Positions 7,259-18,189 of a DNA stretch of 64,000 bases are shown piece by piece. Below the pieces are notes generated by a model. The model saw nothing but the letters and a program-made list of their open reading frames with translations, was not told the origin of the DNA and searched no databases. Each line of letters opens with the position of its first letter. The stretch's first letter is position 1. The DNA is from Psychrobacter sp. UBA3480. Its GTDB lineage: Bacteria; Pseudomonadota; Gammaproteobacteria; Pseudomonadales; Moraxellaceae. A program made the position numbers and the translations under genes. Location of the stretch: the NCBI RefSeq assembly GCF_002377945.1, contig NZ_DFQV01000020.1:191278-255277 (forward strand). Reading direction: 5' to 3'.

Positions 7259-7729
7259 TCATTTGCATAAAGGCTGACTGGCATACGTTGGTAGTATCAT
7301 TAGTTCAACATTGTAGCCCGCAATTTTGCCTTCGGTAGCCATAAGATTGCGGGCGATACGCAATCGATATGTGCCCGTCGCAGGTAAGCAGCCTTGATAG
7401 ACGATACCACCTTTACCGCCATCTTGTATACCGTTCGGCATATGTAATACGCCGACATTGGCAGTCTCAGATGTTCCCGCAAGTGGGGTAATATTTATCA
7501 CGGCATACTGTCCGCGTGTAGCGTCAAAACGATACCAGCGTTCATTGTCATTGGGATTTAATTTACCAGTGATGACGCTACTAATAGCACCTTTTGTAAA
7601 ACGAATAAGGGTATCGTTATTTTTAGCAATCGCACTATTTGCAGACATACTTACTAGTACCGTGCTAATTACCAATGTTCGCATACAGTGTGCAGCTAAA
7701 GAAGTGGATTTGTAATCAATCAGTCGCAT
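7259..7729 (-). CDS. Secreted hypothetical protein
   Basis: A 156-aa protein of unknown function. An export signal is visible: a basic start, hydrophobic core LVISTVLVSMSANS and likely cleavage after SAIA near residue 35. The mature part has beta-rich sequence (SSVITGKLNPNDNERWYRF, GTYRLRIARNLMA) like the bacterial PPC-type beta-sandwich domains attached to secreted proteins, but I cannot assign the family with confidence. Two late cysteines could form a disulfide. The start at 7729 is favoured by an AGGAG ribosome site; MRTLVISTV at about 7684 would give a more standard signal peptide. Confidence 0.6.
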   Translation of the reverse strand: MRLIDYKSTSLAAHCMRTLVISTVLVSMSANSAIAKNNDTLIRFTKGAISSVITGKLNPNDNERWYRFDATRGQYAVINITPLAGTSETANVGVLHMPNGIQDGGKGGIVYQGCLPATGTYRLRIARNLMATEGKIAGYNVELMILPTYASQPLCK

Positions 7730-11208: not shown

Positions 11209-12072
11209 TTAACGGTCTTTATTTAGCGCTGTTGTTGCTTGTGCGACATCGATAGTATGCCCAGTCCAACGCTCAAAACTTAAAGCGGCCTGACCGATAA
11301 GCATACCGTAGCCTTCAGAGGTCTGTGCGCCACGAGCAGCAAAATGATGCAAGAACGGTAGCGGACGACCATACATCATGTCGTAAGCGTACTGACAGTT
11401 TAGAGCATCATCTAGCGGTAACGTATCACCTGATAAACCAATAGAGGTGGCATTAATAATAATGTCAAAAGAGCCACTGAGTTCATTGGTCGCGCAAACC
11501 TCGATGTTTTGGTTATCGATTATTGAGCTGGCCGCGCTTAGCTCATTTACCAAATCGGCTGCCTTAGACACGGTGCGATTGGCAATCGTGAGAGAGCCAA
11601 TACCCGCTTCAAATAATGGCAATATTACGCCACGAGCGGCACCGCCTGCACCTATTAGCGCCACACGAGCATCGGTCAGTGGCCAGTCCATACTCATAAT
11701 GTGATTGATAAGTCCTTGTCCATCCGTGTTATCACCATAGAGTGCTTCGGTGATTGGTACGCCGCTTTCTAATAGTGCTTTGTTCAACAGTAATGTATTG
11801 ACCGCGCCTGCCGTCTTGGCATGTTCTGATAAGCCACCACGCGCCGCACAGCAATCATAAGCAACTTGTTTAAAAGGAACTGTCACGTTAGCGCCCACAC
11901 CGCCACCACAAAAAAATGCCTCAACGACAGCTGTAAAACTGGCGGCATCATCAGGGCAGTACTGCCGCTGATAGCTAATATCAATCCCTGCTTGTACAGC
12001 AAACTGCTCATGAATCTCAGGAGATTTACTATGGGCAATTGGATTGCCAATAACGATAAAGTGTTGGGTCAT
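11209..12072 (-). CDS. aroE: Shikimate dehydrogenase AroE
   Basis: An NADP-dependent enzyme reducing 3-dehydroshikimate to shikimate in aromatic amino acid synthesis. The 287-aa product has the substrate motif GNPIAHSKSPEIH, catalytic Lys68 (NVTVPFK) and Asp117 (GDNTDGQG), the nucleotide loop GAGGAARG at 141-148 followed by NRT (the NADP-selecting arginine), and a final GYGMLIGQAALSFERWTG. Length is slightly above E. coli AroE (272 aa). It converges with the FUSC-like gene and diverges from the lipoprotein/pabC operon. Confidence 0.95.
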   Translation of the reverse strand: MTQHFIVIGNPIAHSKSPEIHEQFAVQAGIDISYQRQYCPDDAASFTAVVEAFFCGGGVGANVTVPFKQVAYDCCAARGGLSEHAKTAGAVNTLLLNKALLESGVPITEALYGDNTDGQGLINHIMSMDWPLTDARVALIGAGGAARGVILPLFEAGIGSLTIANRTVSKAADLVNELSAASSIIDNQNIEVCATNELSGSFDIIINATSIGLSGDTLPLDDALNCQYAYDMMYGRPLPFLHHFAARGAQTSEGYGMLIGQAALSFERWTGHTIDVAQATTALNKDR

Positions 12073-13228: not shown

Positions 13229-14239
13229 ATGACCGATACGACATCAGTGCCAAACGGTTGGGTGTGTCTGTACCCTCAAGACAGTAGTTTGACTGAATAT
13301 AATAGGGTAACCGAAGATAACAGGACAACCAGCCAAACGGTAACGATGTCTTTAGATAATCGCGGGCTGGCATACGCTGACGGCTTCTTTACCACTATGG
13401 GTGTCATTGATGGGTTGATACTGTGGTCAGATTATCATTATCAGCGACTTGTCTCTCATGCTGATACCTTGCAGCTAAATATAAATAGCGAAGAGCTATT
13501 AGCAGTACTGCAACTGTACGCTCAGCAATTAGAGCAGGGTATGCTTAAGCTAGTAGTCACCCGCGCTGCGCAGGATGTGCGCGGTTATGGCTATGCACCT
13601 AGTACAAATGGTAGCGACTGTGAGATATGGCTAAAGGCTACCGCAATGAGAGTTTCTACTGCGCTACAACTGTCCTTGACTGATGGAAACTTAGTACCTA
13701 TCCAGCCTAATGCTTCTGCAATATGCTTGTCTTCTCAGATTGCTTGCCTGCCGCCACCGTTGGCAGGTCTCAAGAGCCTTAATCGTTTAGACAATGTCCT
13801 CGCTAGTGGTGAGCTACAACAGATAAAATCTGAGCCATTGGCATCAAAGCTTGCTTCAACACTTGGTGAAGGACTGCTACGCGATATGAGCGGGCAGTGG
13901 GTTGAGGGTACGATGAGTAATGTTTTCTACCAATTGGCAGAAGAGTCGCTATCGAAATCCAAAACTACCTCTAGTATTCGTAAAGATGACGAAAACTACC
14001 TAACCACTGGCCAGTGGTACACCCCTTCTATGGCTCGATCAGGCGTTACTGGCGTCATGCGTCAGGTAATTATAGATGCACTATCCACGACGCAATATCC
14101 AGTCATAATCAGGTCGCTACAAGATGAGGATTTGCCTAAACTAACGCACCTCTTCTTTTGCAATGCACTGCGCGGTATCATGCCAATGAGCAGTCTGACG
14201 TTGTTGTCAGGTGATGTTGTGGATTTTGAATCCGTTTAG
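13229..14239 (+). CDS. pabC: Aminodeoxychorismate lyase PabC
   Basis: A PLP enzyme converting aminodeoxychorismate to p-aminobenzoate for folate. The fold-IV lyase pattern is visible: SLDNRGLAYADGFFTTM at 41-57, the PLP-binding Lys182 in AGLKSLNRLDN, EGTMSNVFY, and a C-terminal FFCNALRGIMP. At 336 aa it is longer than E. coli PabC (269 aa) through an N-terminal extension and a loop before the TGQWYTP segment. In many gammaproteobacteria pabC is directly followed by mltG and tmk; here a 2.6-kb restriction locus intervenes, and the pabC stop codon overlaps the end of the inserted methyltransferase fragment on the other strand. Confidence 0.9.
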   Translation: MTDTTSVPNGWVCLYPQDSSLTEYNRVTEDNRTTSQTVTMSLDNRGLAYADGFFTTMGVIDGLILWSDYHYQRLVSHADTLQLNINSEELLAVLQLYAQQLEQGMLKLVVTRAAQDVRGYGYAPSTNGSDCEIWLKATAMRVSTALQLSLTDGNLVPIQPNASAICLSSQIACLPPPLAGLKSLNRLDNVLASGELQQIKSEPLASKLASTLGEGLLRDMSGQWVEGTMSNVFYQLAEESLSKSKTTSSIRKDDENYLTTGQWYTPSMARSGVTGVMRQVIIDALSTTQYPVIIRSLQDEDLPKLTHLFFCNALRGIMPMSSLTLLSGDVVDFESV

Positions 14240-14937
14240 TTATTACTCTCTTTATTTAATAAACGATAGAAATGCTGTTTGAAAAACTCTTTTCTTCCTT
14301 CTTGTTGTAGGTCTTCGTAACGCGCTTGGCTAAGTTGTAGGTATTCAGCTTCCTGTTCAATACCGATAAATTGCCTTCCTAAGACATTACTTGCAATACC
14401 TGTCGTCGCAGAGCCAGCAAAAGGGTCAAGAACCACTGCATTTTTCTTAGTAGAAGCTAAAATAATTTGAGCTAGTAATGCCAAAGGTTTCTGCGTAGTG
14501 TGCTTACCACAAGATTTTTCCCACTTAGCAATTGCTGGCAAGCGCCACACATCTTTCATTTGCTTATCGTTATTGAGTCGTTTCATCAAATCGTAATCGA
14601 AGTAGTGCGGTACTTTAGGGTGTTTTCTTGCCCAAATAATGAATTCTGTAGAATGAGTAAAAAACCGACAAGAAAAGTTGGGTGGTGGATTGGTTTTTTC
14701 CCAAGTTATAACATTAAGTACCTTAAAACCAAGCTGCGGCAAAATACGTCCTAAGGTAAAAATATTATGGTGTGTACCACTGACCCATAAGGTCGCATTA
14801 TCTGCCATTTTTTCTCGTACAGCAGATAGCCATTCGTAGGTGAATACGTAAGCATCATTGTCACTGATGAGCTTGTCCCACTGACCTTTATTGACTGACT
14901 GGACTTTACCGTTTTTCACTGTTAGACCATTATTGAA
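14236..14937 (-). pseudogene. DpnA-like adenine DNA methyltransferase, 5'-truncated (lacks DPPY motif)
   Basis: The C-terminal 230 or so residues of a beta-class N6-adenine methyltransferase related to DpnA (DpnII system) and M.HinfI. Recognisable blocks are QSVNKGQWDK, LWVSGTHHNIFTLG, TWEKTNPPPNFSCRFFTHST, the KHTTQKP segment and the SAM-binding DPFAGSATTG (residues 165-174 from the GTG at 14919). In this family the catalytic DPPY motif and the preceding 40-50 residues lie just N-terminal of the first block. Upstream of 14937 the frame loses similarity and meets a TAG at 14971-14973; I find no DPPY there. Without motif IV it should be catalytically dead. Its stop codon overlaps the end of pabC. 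Confidence 0.8.
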
Positions 14938-15037
14938 TGTACTGGTTAAGAGCCAGCGCTCTACTATTATCTATACGCTTATCCATTAAGGTTCACAAGT
15001 ACTGAGAGCTACTTTAGGTTTGAGCTAGCTACTCATT

Positions 15038-15211
15038 CTATTCTACGCCAAAGATAATAAATTCAGTATCAAGCATATCATCAGGTTCTAAAGTAATATT
15101 CTCGCTTCTATATTCTTCTCGCGCTTTTAGCAGAGCAGTTTCACCATCTTCTGCAACCACTTCTATAAGTGCACTCATCGTTTCGATTACTTCTATTTGA
15201 TAAATATTCAA
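15038..15211 (-). CDS. dpnD: DpnD-like small protein of the DpnI cassette
   Basis: A 57-aa acidic protein resembling the DpnD/PcfM family: a beta-hairpin-like YQIEVIETMSALIEVVAEDG, then a helix (TALLKAREEYRS) and the ending ITLEPDDMLDTEFIIF. In Streptococcus pneumoniae dpnD accompanies dpnC, the DpnI gene, and its function is unknown. I chose the TTG at 15211 because an AAGGA ribosome site lies 8 bases upstream; the ATG at 15229 would overlap that site. It is on the same strand as the DpnI gene here but separated from it by an ORF on the opposite strand. Confidence 0.7.
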   Translation of the reverse strand: MNIYQIEVIETMSALIEVVAEDGETALLKAREEYRSENITLEPDDMLDTEFIIFGVE

Positions 15212-15406
15212 ACCGTCTGTCCTTATCATAACTATTCTCAACAATTACAAGTTGTCATATTCAAAATCTATTTTTGTTATCTATACCAACTAGATTAGCA
15301 AAAGCGCTCAAAAGAAGTGATCGTCTTTTGTTACCTAGACTTGTGTCTTAGAGCAAATCGATCAATGATCCTTTTTCAGTAGAAACCGTTAAAAGGACAG
15401 TATCGT

Positions 15407-15973
15407 ATGCGTTCAATACATGAAGATCAACGAATTCCACTACAAATCAGACGCTTGATGGTGTTTGATGAAATTTGTAGATTGGCCAAAGCTAAGCCTA
15501 ATGAAATCGTGCATTTGTCACCTTATACTCAATTGGCTTTTGGTGTCATATATTTAAAAACCCTTAAAAGGTTTGTGGCTTTTGGAGGTATGTTTGAGTA
15601 TGCGCATACGCGAGAAGAAGTCATTGAGCAAGGTATCGACGTTATTGCTAATGATGAATTGGTAATGTGTGCCTTGACAGTTAATCTAATTCCTTTTACC
15701 AAACCTGCACGCAACTCGGTACAGCTGTTATGGCAGTGGAATCGCTATGTACGTAATCGATTGCATGCTTATATTGACTATCGTGAAGAGCATTTTTTCA
15801 AAATCAATGATGAAATTGATTGGGAGTATCCAGCGCATAAGTTTCATCAGCGTCTTGTGGCTACTGCGCGATTACCATTATGGGATGATAGAGATGAGCT
15901 GATTGCCGATGTGTACCGTGACAGAAAAGGACAGCCAAGACCTAAGCACTACAACGAGAAGCGACTAGTATAA
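15407..15973 (+). CDS. Unrecognised 188-aa protein in the DpnI locus
   Basis: I do not recognise a family. The protein is basic and aromatic-rich with no signal peptide or membrane segment, so probably cytoplasmic. Notable segments are LQIRRLMVFDEICRLAKAKPNEIVHLSPY near the N-terminus, a middle stretch around NLIPFTKPARNSVQLLWQWN, and a polar C-terminus RDRKGQPRPKHYNEKR. An AGGA ribosome site precedes the ATG. It converges on the DpnI gene with a 9-base overlap of the 3' ends and diverges from the DpnD-like gene, which places it physically within the restriction cassette. A regulatory or accessory role is speculation. Confidence 0.65.
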   Translation: MRSIHEDQRIPLQIRRLMVFDEICRLAKAKPNEIVHLSPYTQLAFGVIYLKTLKRFVAFGGMFEYAHTREEVIEQGIDVIANDELVMCALTVNLIPFTKPARNSVQLLWQWNRYVRNRLHAYIDYREEHFFKINDEIDWEYPAHKFHQRLVATARLPLWDDRDELIADVYRDRKGQPRPKHYNEKRLV

Positions 15974-16729
15974 CTTTCGATAATGACCACGGCTCACAAA
16001 TTCAATGATGCCTTTATCTCGTAATACTTGTAATTGTTGGCGAATTTTATCTTTTACGTGGTTGTTTTCAGGATGTTTGAGCTGCAACTCATCAGCAAAA
16101 GCATAGACTTGATTTAGAGAAAAACTGTCATCGAGTCGGTCGATACATTGCCAGATATCGAGTGTCCAACCGCGTGAAGCCATAGATTGCTTGCGTAAAA
16201 ATAAAGTCTTTTGGAAATGTTGGGTGACATTTTCACGCGGTATAACTTGTTGGTCTTTGACCAAAAATACTTTGCCCGATTCGGGTACTTGGCGTAAGTC
16301 AATATTGCAACCAACCCAACCTGCTCGTTTGGCATTCACTGATAAGGGTTTACGCTTAACAATGATATCGGGCGTAAAGAAATGCTTGGGAATAATTAGA
16401 AAATTATTAACGGTGTATTCTTTTGAGTAGGTTAAAAAGAAAAAGCTGGGATTGTCCTTACTATTGATACGCTCAATCATCGTCTTGTAAGCGCCATCAT
16501 TGACAACACTGCTCAACTTGGCTTTTTTACTTTTTAGCTCATATTGCTCATTACAATTTTCGCAATAAAAATCAGCAACAGGTTTGTTATTAGCAAACTC
16601 AGCTAGCGATTGAGCGCTACAATTGGTGCAGTAACTATTTTCTTTTACCCATGCTTCGCTGAGTACACGAACTTTTTGAGGTTCAGAGTGATAGTTTTTA
16701 GCAAGACTTTGGTTAAAATGTAGGTTCAT
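15965..16729 (-). CDS. dpnC: DpnI-like restriction endonuclease (cuts methylated GATC)
   Basis: A type IIM restriction enzyme of the DpnI family, which cleaves GATC only when adenine is methylated. The 254-aa length and alignment track pneumococcal DpnI across the whole protein. Metal-binding cysteines C34, C37, C56 and C59, and the PD-(D/E)XK residues D53, E64 and K66 (in VADFYC and YELKSK), sit at the same positions as in DpnI. The middle RAGWVGCNIDL and the C-terminal winged-helix region (IRQQLQVLRDKGIIEF) are also kept. Such an enzyme is tolerated only in cells without Dam-type methylation and restricts DNA from Dam-positive sources. It lies upstream of mltG in divergent orientation. Confidence 0.93.
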   Translation of the reverse strand: MNLHFNQSLAKNYHSEPQKVRVLSEAWVKENSYCTNCSAQSLAEFANNKPVADFYCENCNEQYELKSKKAKLSSVVNDGAYKTMIERINSKDNPSFFFLTYSKEYTVNNFLIIPKHFFTPDIIVKRKPLSVNAKRAGWVGCNIDLRQVPESGKVFLVKDQQVIPRENVTQHFQKTLFLRKQSMASRGWTLDIWQCIDRLDDSFSLNQVYAFADELQLKHPENNHVKDKIRQQLQVLRDKGIIEFVSRGHYRKLY

Positions 16730-16899: not shown

Positions 16900-18189
16900 A
16901 TGAGCAAGCCTACACCCAATATACCACCTGAACGTCCCAATGAGTCGCCGTCAAACAAACAAGATGGCACAGTCGAGGAGCGTGTCGATACCACGCTGCC
17001 GGACGCGCAACCAGTGGTAGATGAGGTGGAAGACACATCAGCAACGCCAGCAACCAACGTCTCGCTCATCAGCGGCAACAGTAAACCGCGTCAATATAAA
17101 GTCAATAACCCATCGTTTTTTATGCAACGCGGCTATCAAGTGCTGCTAGTATTGGGGCTTATTGCAGCATTTTTCTTGGTCATGGTTTATCAGACGTTGT
17201 TTGGTCGTATCGAGCAGCCGCAGCAAATGGTCACGATTGAGCCAGGTCAGACGTATTACGGTCTACTACCGCAGTGGCAGCAGCAGATTCCGCTGTTTTC
17301 GGCAGGCGTGGCTAAGCTATATATCAAGTCACAAGTCGATGCGCCGTTGCATGCTGGTACGTATCAACTACCCGAAAACCCGACTATCGCTGAGGCGCTA
17401 CAAATACTAGGTCAAGGCGCAAAAGCGGCTATGGTCAAGGTACAGATTATCGAAGGTAAGACATCTAAAGACCTTTACCAAGTGCTGCGTGATAATGATA
17501 AAATTGAAAAAGAAGTACTGACTGTAGATAGTGATAATGCGAGTATTGCCCAAGCATTGGATTTGACAGGTGTATTGCCAGACAGTGTGGCTAATAGCAG
17601 TGACCCGATTGTTAACTACAATCTTGAAGGTTGGTTCGCGCCTGATACCTATTATTATGGTGAAGGAACCAGCGATAAAAAAGTACTGACTGACTTGTAT
17701 AAACGTCAGCAGCAGGTACTGACTGATGCGTGGGAAAATCGTGCACCGAACCTGCCTTATAAGAGTCCATATGAAGCGTTAGTGATGGCGTCTATTATCG
17801 AAAAAGAGACCAGCGTTGCTGATGAACGTCCTTTAGTCTCTGCCGTATTTAGAAATCGCTTGAATAAAAACATGCGTATGCAGACGGACCCGACTATTAT
17901 CTATGGTATGGGCAGTCGCTATGATGGCAATATCCGCCGCAAAGACATCAATGAAAAAACGTCTTACAATACCTACCAAATTGATGGTTTACCGCCAACG
18001 CCAATTGCGCTACCATCAGCGGCCTCTATCGAAGCGACCTTACATCCTGCTGATAGTGAAGCGTTGTATTTTGTGGCAACGGGCAATGGTGGGCACAAAT
18101 TTACCAATAGCTTGGCTGAACACAATCAAGCGGTAAAAGACTATCTCAGTGTCATGCGTGAGAAAAAATCTCAAACGCCGCCGCAGTAA
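16900..18189 (+). CDS. mltG: Endolytic transglycosylase MltG
   Basis: An inner-membrane murein lytic transglycosylase that trims nascent glycan strands. The 429-aa product has a polar Pro/Ser/Thr N-terminal tail of about 75 residues, one transmembrane segment (VLLVLGLIAAFFLVMVYQTL), a LysM-like region and the YceG domain with the catalytic Glu301 in ASIIEKET, then TDPTIIYGMG and TSYNTYQIDGLPPTPI. It is longer than E. coli MltG (340 aa) mainly through the N-terminal tail. tmk follows 88 bases downstream; the usual upstream neighbour pabC is displaced by the restriction insert. Confidence 0.93.
   Translation: MSKPTPNIPPERPNESPSNKQDGTVEERVDTTLPDAQPVVDEVEDTSATPATNVSLISGNSKPRQYKVNNPSFFMQRGYQVLLVLGLIAAFFLVMVYQTLFGRIEQPQQMVTIEPGQTYYGLLPQWQQQIPLFSAGVAKLYIKSQVDAPLHAGTYQLPENPTIAEALQILGQGAKAAMVKVQIIEGKTSKDLYQVLRDNDKIEKEVLTVDSDNASIAQALDLTGVLPDSVANSSDPIVNYNLEGWFAPDTYYYGEGTSDKKVLTDLYKRQQQVLTDAWENRAPNLPYKSPYEALVMASIIEKETSVADERPLVSAVFRNRLNKNMRMQTDPTIIYGMGSRYDGNIRRKDINEKTSYNTYQIDGLPPTPIALPSAASIEATLHPADSEALYFVATGNGGHKFTNSLAEHNQAVKDYLSVMREKKSQTPPQ

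Follow-up and report, generated by a model that had tools for sequence, protein, structure and literature searches.

What does it mean that a gene for a DpnI-type endonuclease stands between pabC and mltG in Psychrobacter sp. UBA3480? The window analysed here is a stretch of 64,000 nucleotides (contig NZ_DFQV01000020.1, positions 191,278 to 255,277 of the forward strand) from a genome of 3.49 Mb that is held in 33 contigs and is not closed. A sequence-only reading had seen in it a DpnI cassette cleanly inserted between two genes that are normally neighbours. Comparison across the genus indicates instead, with good confidence, that the Psychrobacter pabC–mltG interval is an exchange site of mutually hostile GATC systems, where conflict probably drives the swapping of one cassette for the other. 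The window's own locus is a recombinant mosaic at this site, and its features are as follows (genomes and loci carry G and L numbers throughout):

13229..14239, + strand: pabC, the left conserved flank (PF01063 at 106 bits; TIGR03461 below cut-off)
14236..14934, − strand: remnant of a DpnA/MboC-like adenine methylase (PF01555 at 175 bits; matches to the chains of CcrM 6pbd and DpnA 5hek)
14935..15037, no strand: junction and spacer, present only in the five hybrid loci described below, which break at this common point
15038..15244, − strand: DpnD/PcfM-like small protein (PF14207 at 33.7 bits, cut-off 25)
15407..15973, + strand: orf188, a DpnI-cassette gene of 188 amino acids (aa), convergent with dpnI and overlapping it by 9 bases
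15965..16729, − strand: dpnI, predicted methyl-directed GATC endonuclease of 254 aa (PF06044, PF17726, 4esj)
16900..18189, + strand: mltG, the right conserved flank (TIGR00247 at 282.8 bits)

The product of dpnI is a complete member of the DpnI family, predicted to cut only methylated GATC. Profile searches matched it to PF06044 (274 bits), to the C-terminal winged-helix domain PF17726 (116 bits) and to the PADLOC family mREase_II (393 bits), and the solved DpnI 4esj matched residues 1–253 at 333 bits. The zinc cysteines C34, C37, C56 and C59 and the catalytic D53, E64 and K66 are all present at the numbers that the sequence-only reading had given; its identification of the enzyme was right, and this identity supports the predicted role in restricting DNA with methylated GATC (GmATC). 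The setting was misread, because 14236–14919 is a methylase remnant and the interval is a shared cassette site. The span assigned to the cassette (14236..16729) took in this methylase gene but left it unnamed, and what had been called a full cassette does contain DpnI and DpnD but is recombinant, with the remains of the opposite system included. The DpnD-like gene placed beside dpnI exists, at 15038–15244 (−), but orf188 lies between them on the other strand, so that the interval reads, left to right, methylase fragment (−), DpnD/PcfM (−), orf188 (+) and dpnI (−). DpnD, as its family name reflects, accompanies DpnI in the pneumococcal cassette.

DpnI was detected in 84 of 105 Psychrobacter genomes; in an evenly spread sample of the phylum, 9 of 398 genomes had matches above cut-off, two of the nine being Psychrobacter. 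A match to mltG was found in 104 of the 105, and guided by its coordinates 100 regions of 99 genomes were retrieved, which together with the window made 100 mapped genomes; G080 (no mltG match), G086, G095, G021 and G067 fall outside this count. The left flank was pabC in fetched relatives wherever it was readable. Between pabC and mltG, DpnI without MTb (the DpnA-like methylase of the opposite system) was found in 74 genomes and an intact MTb cassette without DpnI in 12 (G020, G027, G044, G045, G056, G065, G071, G074, G079, G093, G094 and G096). Five loci are hybrids (the window, G069, G042, G037 and G063; G037 is split over two contigs, with only a broken piece of dpnI matched), seven genomes have neither system (G026, G034, G040, G047, G076, G101 and G104), G043 has scraps only and G087 is cut by a contig end. 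In each of the 78 fetched loci that contained pabC, mltG and a DpnI match together, DpnI lay between the other two. The key residues CCDCCEK were found in 76 of 80 DpnI loci checked, the longest open piece of the remaining four lacking some or all of them; ten of the 80 were flagged as short or without the residues, and G013 is also split. Common flanks therefore carry opposite GATC systems in relatives, as at a DpnI/DpnII alternative-cassette site, if the activities and specificities are as predicted. Among the loci with neither system, the near-empty gap of G026 (L051, ~7640–7700, in the orientation with mltG on the + strand) still contains the first codons of dpnI, from which we read at least one empty site as a deletion. 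The intervals of G104 (L069, ~2.1 kb) and G047 (L057, ~6 kb, where orf188 is present and DpnI absent) contain other DNA.

All twelve restriction–modification (R-M) cassettes at the site pair the DpnA-like MTb with a D12 methylase, MTa, which in G044, G079 and G093 is a distant form (37–38% identical) on the opposite strand. The seven cassettes whose frames were listed (G044, G056, G065, G079, G093, G094 and G096) also encode an 82–84-aa protein and an XRE-type controller; the controller of G094 matches HTH_3, and its small protein has no Pfam match. In these seven the small protein is encoded directly upstream of the DpnA-like gene (e.g. L066:5708–5959), and for the G094 version 115 homologues were found, every named one being from Psychrobacter. 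Four kinds of nuclease complete the cassettes: MutH-like in six genomes, PDDEXK_11-like in two, DUF6997 (PADLOC REase_II) in three and DpnII in one, as judged by profiles run on one representative per kind and by tblastn or by eye for the others. Since the methylases are common to them, all four are taken as putative GATC cutters. With different cassettes between conserved genes, the site is a candidate minimal mobile element; no recombinase was found among the identified interval genes, no profile search having been aimed at recombinases across the intervals.

The two systems are also distributed unevenly over whole genomes. GATC-type MTa, counted anywhere in a genome when near full length and either at least 68% identical or of the 41–43% kind, occurred in 4 of the 84 genomes with DpnI and in 12 of the 21 without it (Fisher p = 1.9e-7, uncorrected for relatedness). 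A search of the window genome found no intact GATC-type methylase in its contigs, the genome not being closed. The sole PF01555 match was the truncated gene, and the sole PF02086 match was a phage-type enzyme (PHROG_56) that is 31% identical to the GATC-type methylase and lacks the stretch NGL-R-N-FN-P-G-Y seen in GATC-type MTa.

The open reading frame of the truncated gene, 14236–14919 (−), called from a GTG at 14919, covers the last 227 codons of a DpnA-like N6-adenine methylase. The intact gene in close relatives has 276 codons with FADPPYF at 36–42; the remnant keeps residues 45–276 and has lost residues 1–44, including DPPY (38–41). Its homology ends at base 14935, beyond which the DNA is not found in the intact cassettes compared, and blastn of the interval to the R-M cassettes of G065, G093, G094, G079 and G020 halts at 14930–14935. 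With the N6_N4_Mtase domain and close identity present and DPPY absent, the remnant at 14236–14934 is, on its sequence, not a functional member of the DpnA/MboC-like GATC methylases. It is 96–98% identical to local intact alleles, and over 14000–14935 the DNA is 95.8–96.4% identical to G065, G093 and G094. Compared with the G094 allele it has 17 synonymous and 3 non-synonymous differences, the latter including a P to T change in HPTQKP, indicating that the break is recent or that the piece has been exchanged with an intact allele. The same junction is found in all five hybrids (the window being G000), and thus it probably arose once and moved. The G042 and G037 remnants are near their local intact allele, that of G079 (synonymous divergence, dS, 0.18 and 0.12). 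A viral origin of the methylase was considered and rejected: six stretches in viral contigs matched the pattern and none was a relative.

Exchange is also evident when the site is set against its surroundings. One quick tree was made from the flank genes aroE, a lipoprotein gene and a FUSC gene, with 97 rows and 24 of 93 inner branches left open; it covers neither G021, G047, G073 and G039, which had too few columns, nor G074, G022, G087 and the second piece of G037, which had no flank gene. On this tree the intact-cassette state against the rest requires at least 10 changes and the four states require 20, and near-identical sisters carry opposite systems (G027/G028 and G020/G009). The row nearest the window, G084, has DpnI without a remnant. 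The window itself is assembled from differing sources: 14236–14935 resembles G065, G093 and G094; 15100–15359, in the DpnD region, is 99–100% identical to G069, another species whose mltG is only 89% identical; and 15600–15959 is 99% identical to G053. Its dpnI is a local allele, the protein being 96–98% identical in G023, G035, G048, G053, G057, G058, G063, G084, G095 and G099.

According to the mechanism that we propose, one alternative, DpnI with DpnD and usually orf188, would cut GmATC and need an unmethylated host, and the other, consisting of MTb, the DpnM/Dam-like MTa, the 82–84-aa protein, the XRE controller and one of the four nucleases, would methylate GATC in the host and cut unmethylated DNA. 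DpnI strains would then restrict incoming DNA of GATC-methylating donors and phages, and R-M strains would do the reverse, presumably under selection. Homologous recombination through pabC, mltG or a shared piece of methylase could swap the cassettes, in either direction, and so change the type of the cell. Gain of DpnI while GATC is methylated would be lethal, and survivors would be recombinants in which the methylases had been lost or broken; the window would retain one such broken methylase. Natural transformation is a plausible route, for which the ComEC-family gene of the window genome is a weak sign, as this family also matches 10 of 14 control genomes. An active DpnI and an active GATC R-M system are incompatible within one cell. 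Lineages nevertheless switch between them, and the hybrid loci, together with the broken ends that face DpnI in other bacteria (see below), suggest a switching route that does not kill the cell. The near-identical pairs G027/G028 and G020/G009 offer a direct test ground for switching, phage resistance and gene exchange; since material of several species is mixed here, the site may also influence which donors pass DNA to which recipients.

Several observations weigh against this exchange model. G063, G007 and G039 encode an intact DpnI that keeps the seven key residues as well as an open MTa–DpnII pair, which lies elsewhere on a small contig (8.7 kb, L270; 5.8 kb, L271; and 7.8 kb, L272, respectively); by eye, a Rep-like gene is present on the G063 and G007 contigs, and L270 also has a relaxase-like gene. 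G073 (L273) combines DpnI with another MTa-like gene that lies, by eye, beside a DUF6997-type nuclease. These four genomes violate strict conflict unless one partner is silent, the assemblies are mixed or the reading is flawed. Furthermore, the MutH-like (Pfam E 0.0067) and PDDEXK_11-like nucleases are below Pfam cut-offs and have no PADLOC match, and the G063 remnant is unlike its local intact alleles.

Does the same exchange extend beyond Psychrobacter? Here our judgement is evenly balanced: it could be a general rule that DpnI genes often take over the site of an incompatible GATC R-M operon, the methylases being destroyed in the same event with their broken ends facing DpnI, and in Psychrobacter this would have settled into a single chromosomal address, at which five GATC nucleases, for methylated or for unmethylated sites, trade places across the genus. 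A scan of one genome per species of bacteria and archaea gave at least 523 confirmed DpnI places, of which the best 80, ranked by likeness to the Moraxella DpnI, were kept (20 from Psychrobacter and 60 from others). That such enzymes are essentially streptococcal, as the sequence-only reading implied, finds no support, given their presence in most of Psychrobacter, the many phyla among these best 80 and the active drg enzyme of Neisseria (excerpts of PMC4269198). MTa- or MTb-like DNA was found near DpnI in 29 of the 60 non-Psychrobacter loci, matches below 38% identity having been dropped. The 39 matches lie within 500 bp of DpnI in 30 cases (15% expected, p = 1e-17), at 501–1500 bp in eight and beyond in one; 38 are on the DpnI strand, and all 14 MTa matches are upstream. 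Among 37 locus-family cases, the missing end was the DpnI-facing one only in 25, the far one only in two and both in two, with six full length, one at a contig end and one on the other strand; the one-ended cases thus point toward DpnI in 25 of 27 (sign test 5.6e-6), close homologues being counted apart. Two of the four queries came from L203 and L208, so that two full-length rows are self-matches, and in four of the six an MTa copy carries a different tail in place of its own C-terminus. Pieces of DpnII were seen in two loci, and in three Moraxella genomes DpnI stands between an N-terminal piece of MTa and a C-terminal piece of MTb.

So wide a rule has to be set against further counts. A fresh even draw of the phylum gave a methylase piece in none of seven non-Psychrobacter genomes (with short flanks), other Moraxellaceae in only 3 of 11 loci, one of them the same M. 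catarrhalis record, and Psychrobacter itself in only 5 of 79 DpnI-side loci, with no MTa piece in any Psychrobacter DpnI locus at E 1e-3. The 60 loci were chosen for their resemblance to a Moraxella DpnI, the pattern comes mostly from Bacteroidota, and many of the loci belong to metagenome bins of that phylum, so that rate and independence are provisional. Moreover, a DpnA-like frame that keeps DPPY lies beside DpnI in L190 (up to the contig end), L208, L226, L252 and L262, for which a strict conflict rule gives no account. These five frames would be at home in the rival explanation that methylase pieces accompany DpnI through ordinary clustering of defence genes rather than through replacement. 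Restriction genes do cluster in defence islands, and the broken ends were counted at DpnI loci only; the direction of the missing ends, the short distances, the common strand and the upstream position of MTa nevertheless speak against clustering, imperfect as the independence of these loci is, and we consider it improbable.

Somewhat less probable again is that the truncated methylase still functions, perhaps as a partner that binds DNA or regulates the DpnI cassette. Ratios of non-synonymous to synonymous divergence among remnants and intact copies are very low (0.02–0.13 for pairs giving a value), three hybrids (the window, G069 and G037) have an uninterrupted frame, and five genomes retain the identical junction. 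However, a recent truncation, or recombination with intact local alleles, would account for the low ratios equally well, and the frame is interrupted by an in-frame TGA in G042 and by a 4-base deletion and a stop near the start in G063; in the window the P to T change and the GTG start also speak for a broken gene. The idea that horizontal transfer simply and recently placed a DpnI cassette between these two genes of the strain is very unlikely indeed: the G+C content of the interval (0.35–0.41 in 500-base windows) is below most of its surroundings (mostly 0.42–0.49, lower at 12000 and 19000), and pabC–mltG gaps are short in G034, G076, G101, G026 and G040, but DpnI is widespread in the genus, the window's protein is nearly identical to that of ten close relatives, and the near-empty G026 site reads as a deletion.

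The alternation itself is already known as a pneumococcal and neisserial theme (PMC3573125 and PMC4269198, both in excerpt). In pneumococcus the opposite GATC systems dpnC–dpnD (DpnI) and dpnM–dpnA–dpnB (DpnII) are likewise alternatives, the R-M form having DpnM-like and DpnA-like methylases (excerpts of PMC3573125); in Psychrobacter the exchange runs across the species of a whole genus and involves four R-M nucleases, hybrids with a truncated DpnA-like gene and orf188, which in the window separates DpnD from dpnI. In Neisseria the experimentally active DpnI-type drg replaces the GATC methylase gene dam at one site, leuS (excerpts of PMC4269198), and in some strains dam is truncated by drg, an arrangement likened to minimal mobile elements (excerpts of PMC4269198 and PMC516771); at pabC–mltG the partner is instead an R-M cassette that has two methylases and varies in its nuclease. 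For S. pneumoniae, N. meningitidis and other species, different strains are reported to carry DpnI-type and orthodox GATC systems, and the two types are likewise divided between members of one genus in the case of M. catarrhalis and another (excerpts of PMC4687349). The mboIA–dpnI–mboIB arrangement of M. catarrhalis (MboI operon) differs in its chromosomal site, by eye next to a valyl-tRNA-synthetase-like gene, and in its break points, and the parts of the literature consulted contain no description of the mboIA and mboIB pieces as truncated. For N6-methyladenine-dependent endonucleases fused to winged-helix domains, adjacent methylases are sometimes inactivated by frame shifts, and fewer than 100 potential genome conflicts were counted for more than 1,000 proteins; the available part of that study makes no statement on broken ends facing the nuclease or on an exchange locus (PMC11037411). 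No published description of the Psychrobacter site was found in a search that left subscription journals mostly outside. Judged by that search, the new features are this address, its range of four R-M nucleases, the hybrid loci with their common junction, the assignment of orf188 to the DpnI cassette and the count of facing broken ends.

Two elements associated with dpnI deserve description. The orf188 gene is present in 65 of the 105 genus genomes, 64 of which have DpnI; profile searches with its product returned no Pfam, NCBIfam or PADLOC family and one chance-level PHROG (E 0.3). It often forms a tandem duplicate beside DpnI (188-aa and ~164-aa forms), with stops in some copies. Outside Psychrobacter, the Flavo-1 RNA motif (RF01705) lies ~100 bp upstream of dpnI on the opposite strand in L192, L193, L194, L200 and L203, that is, in five of seven Bacteroidota or Spirochaete loci tested (not L191 and L255). 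MTa copies of differing length terminate at Flavo-1, as if the element and dpnI had moved together.

Finally, GATC occurs 140 times in the window against 292 expected, which makes it the second most avoided self-complementary 4-mer; the literature reports the same avoidance in 38 of 42 genomes that encode enzymes of this kind (excerpts of PMC4687349). The most avoided is CCGG, seen 12 times against 66.5 expected, which may reflect prolonged exposure to a CCGG restriction system.

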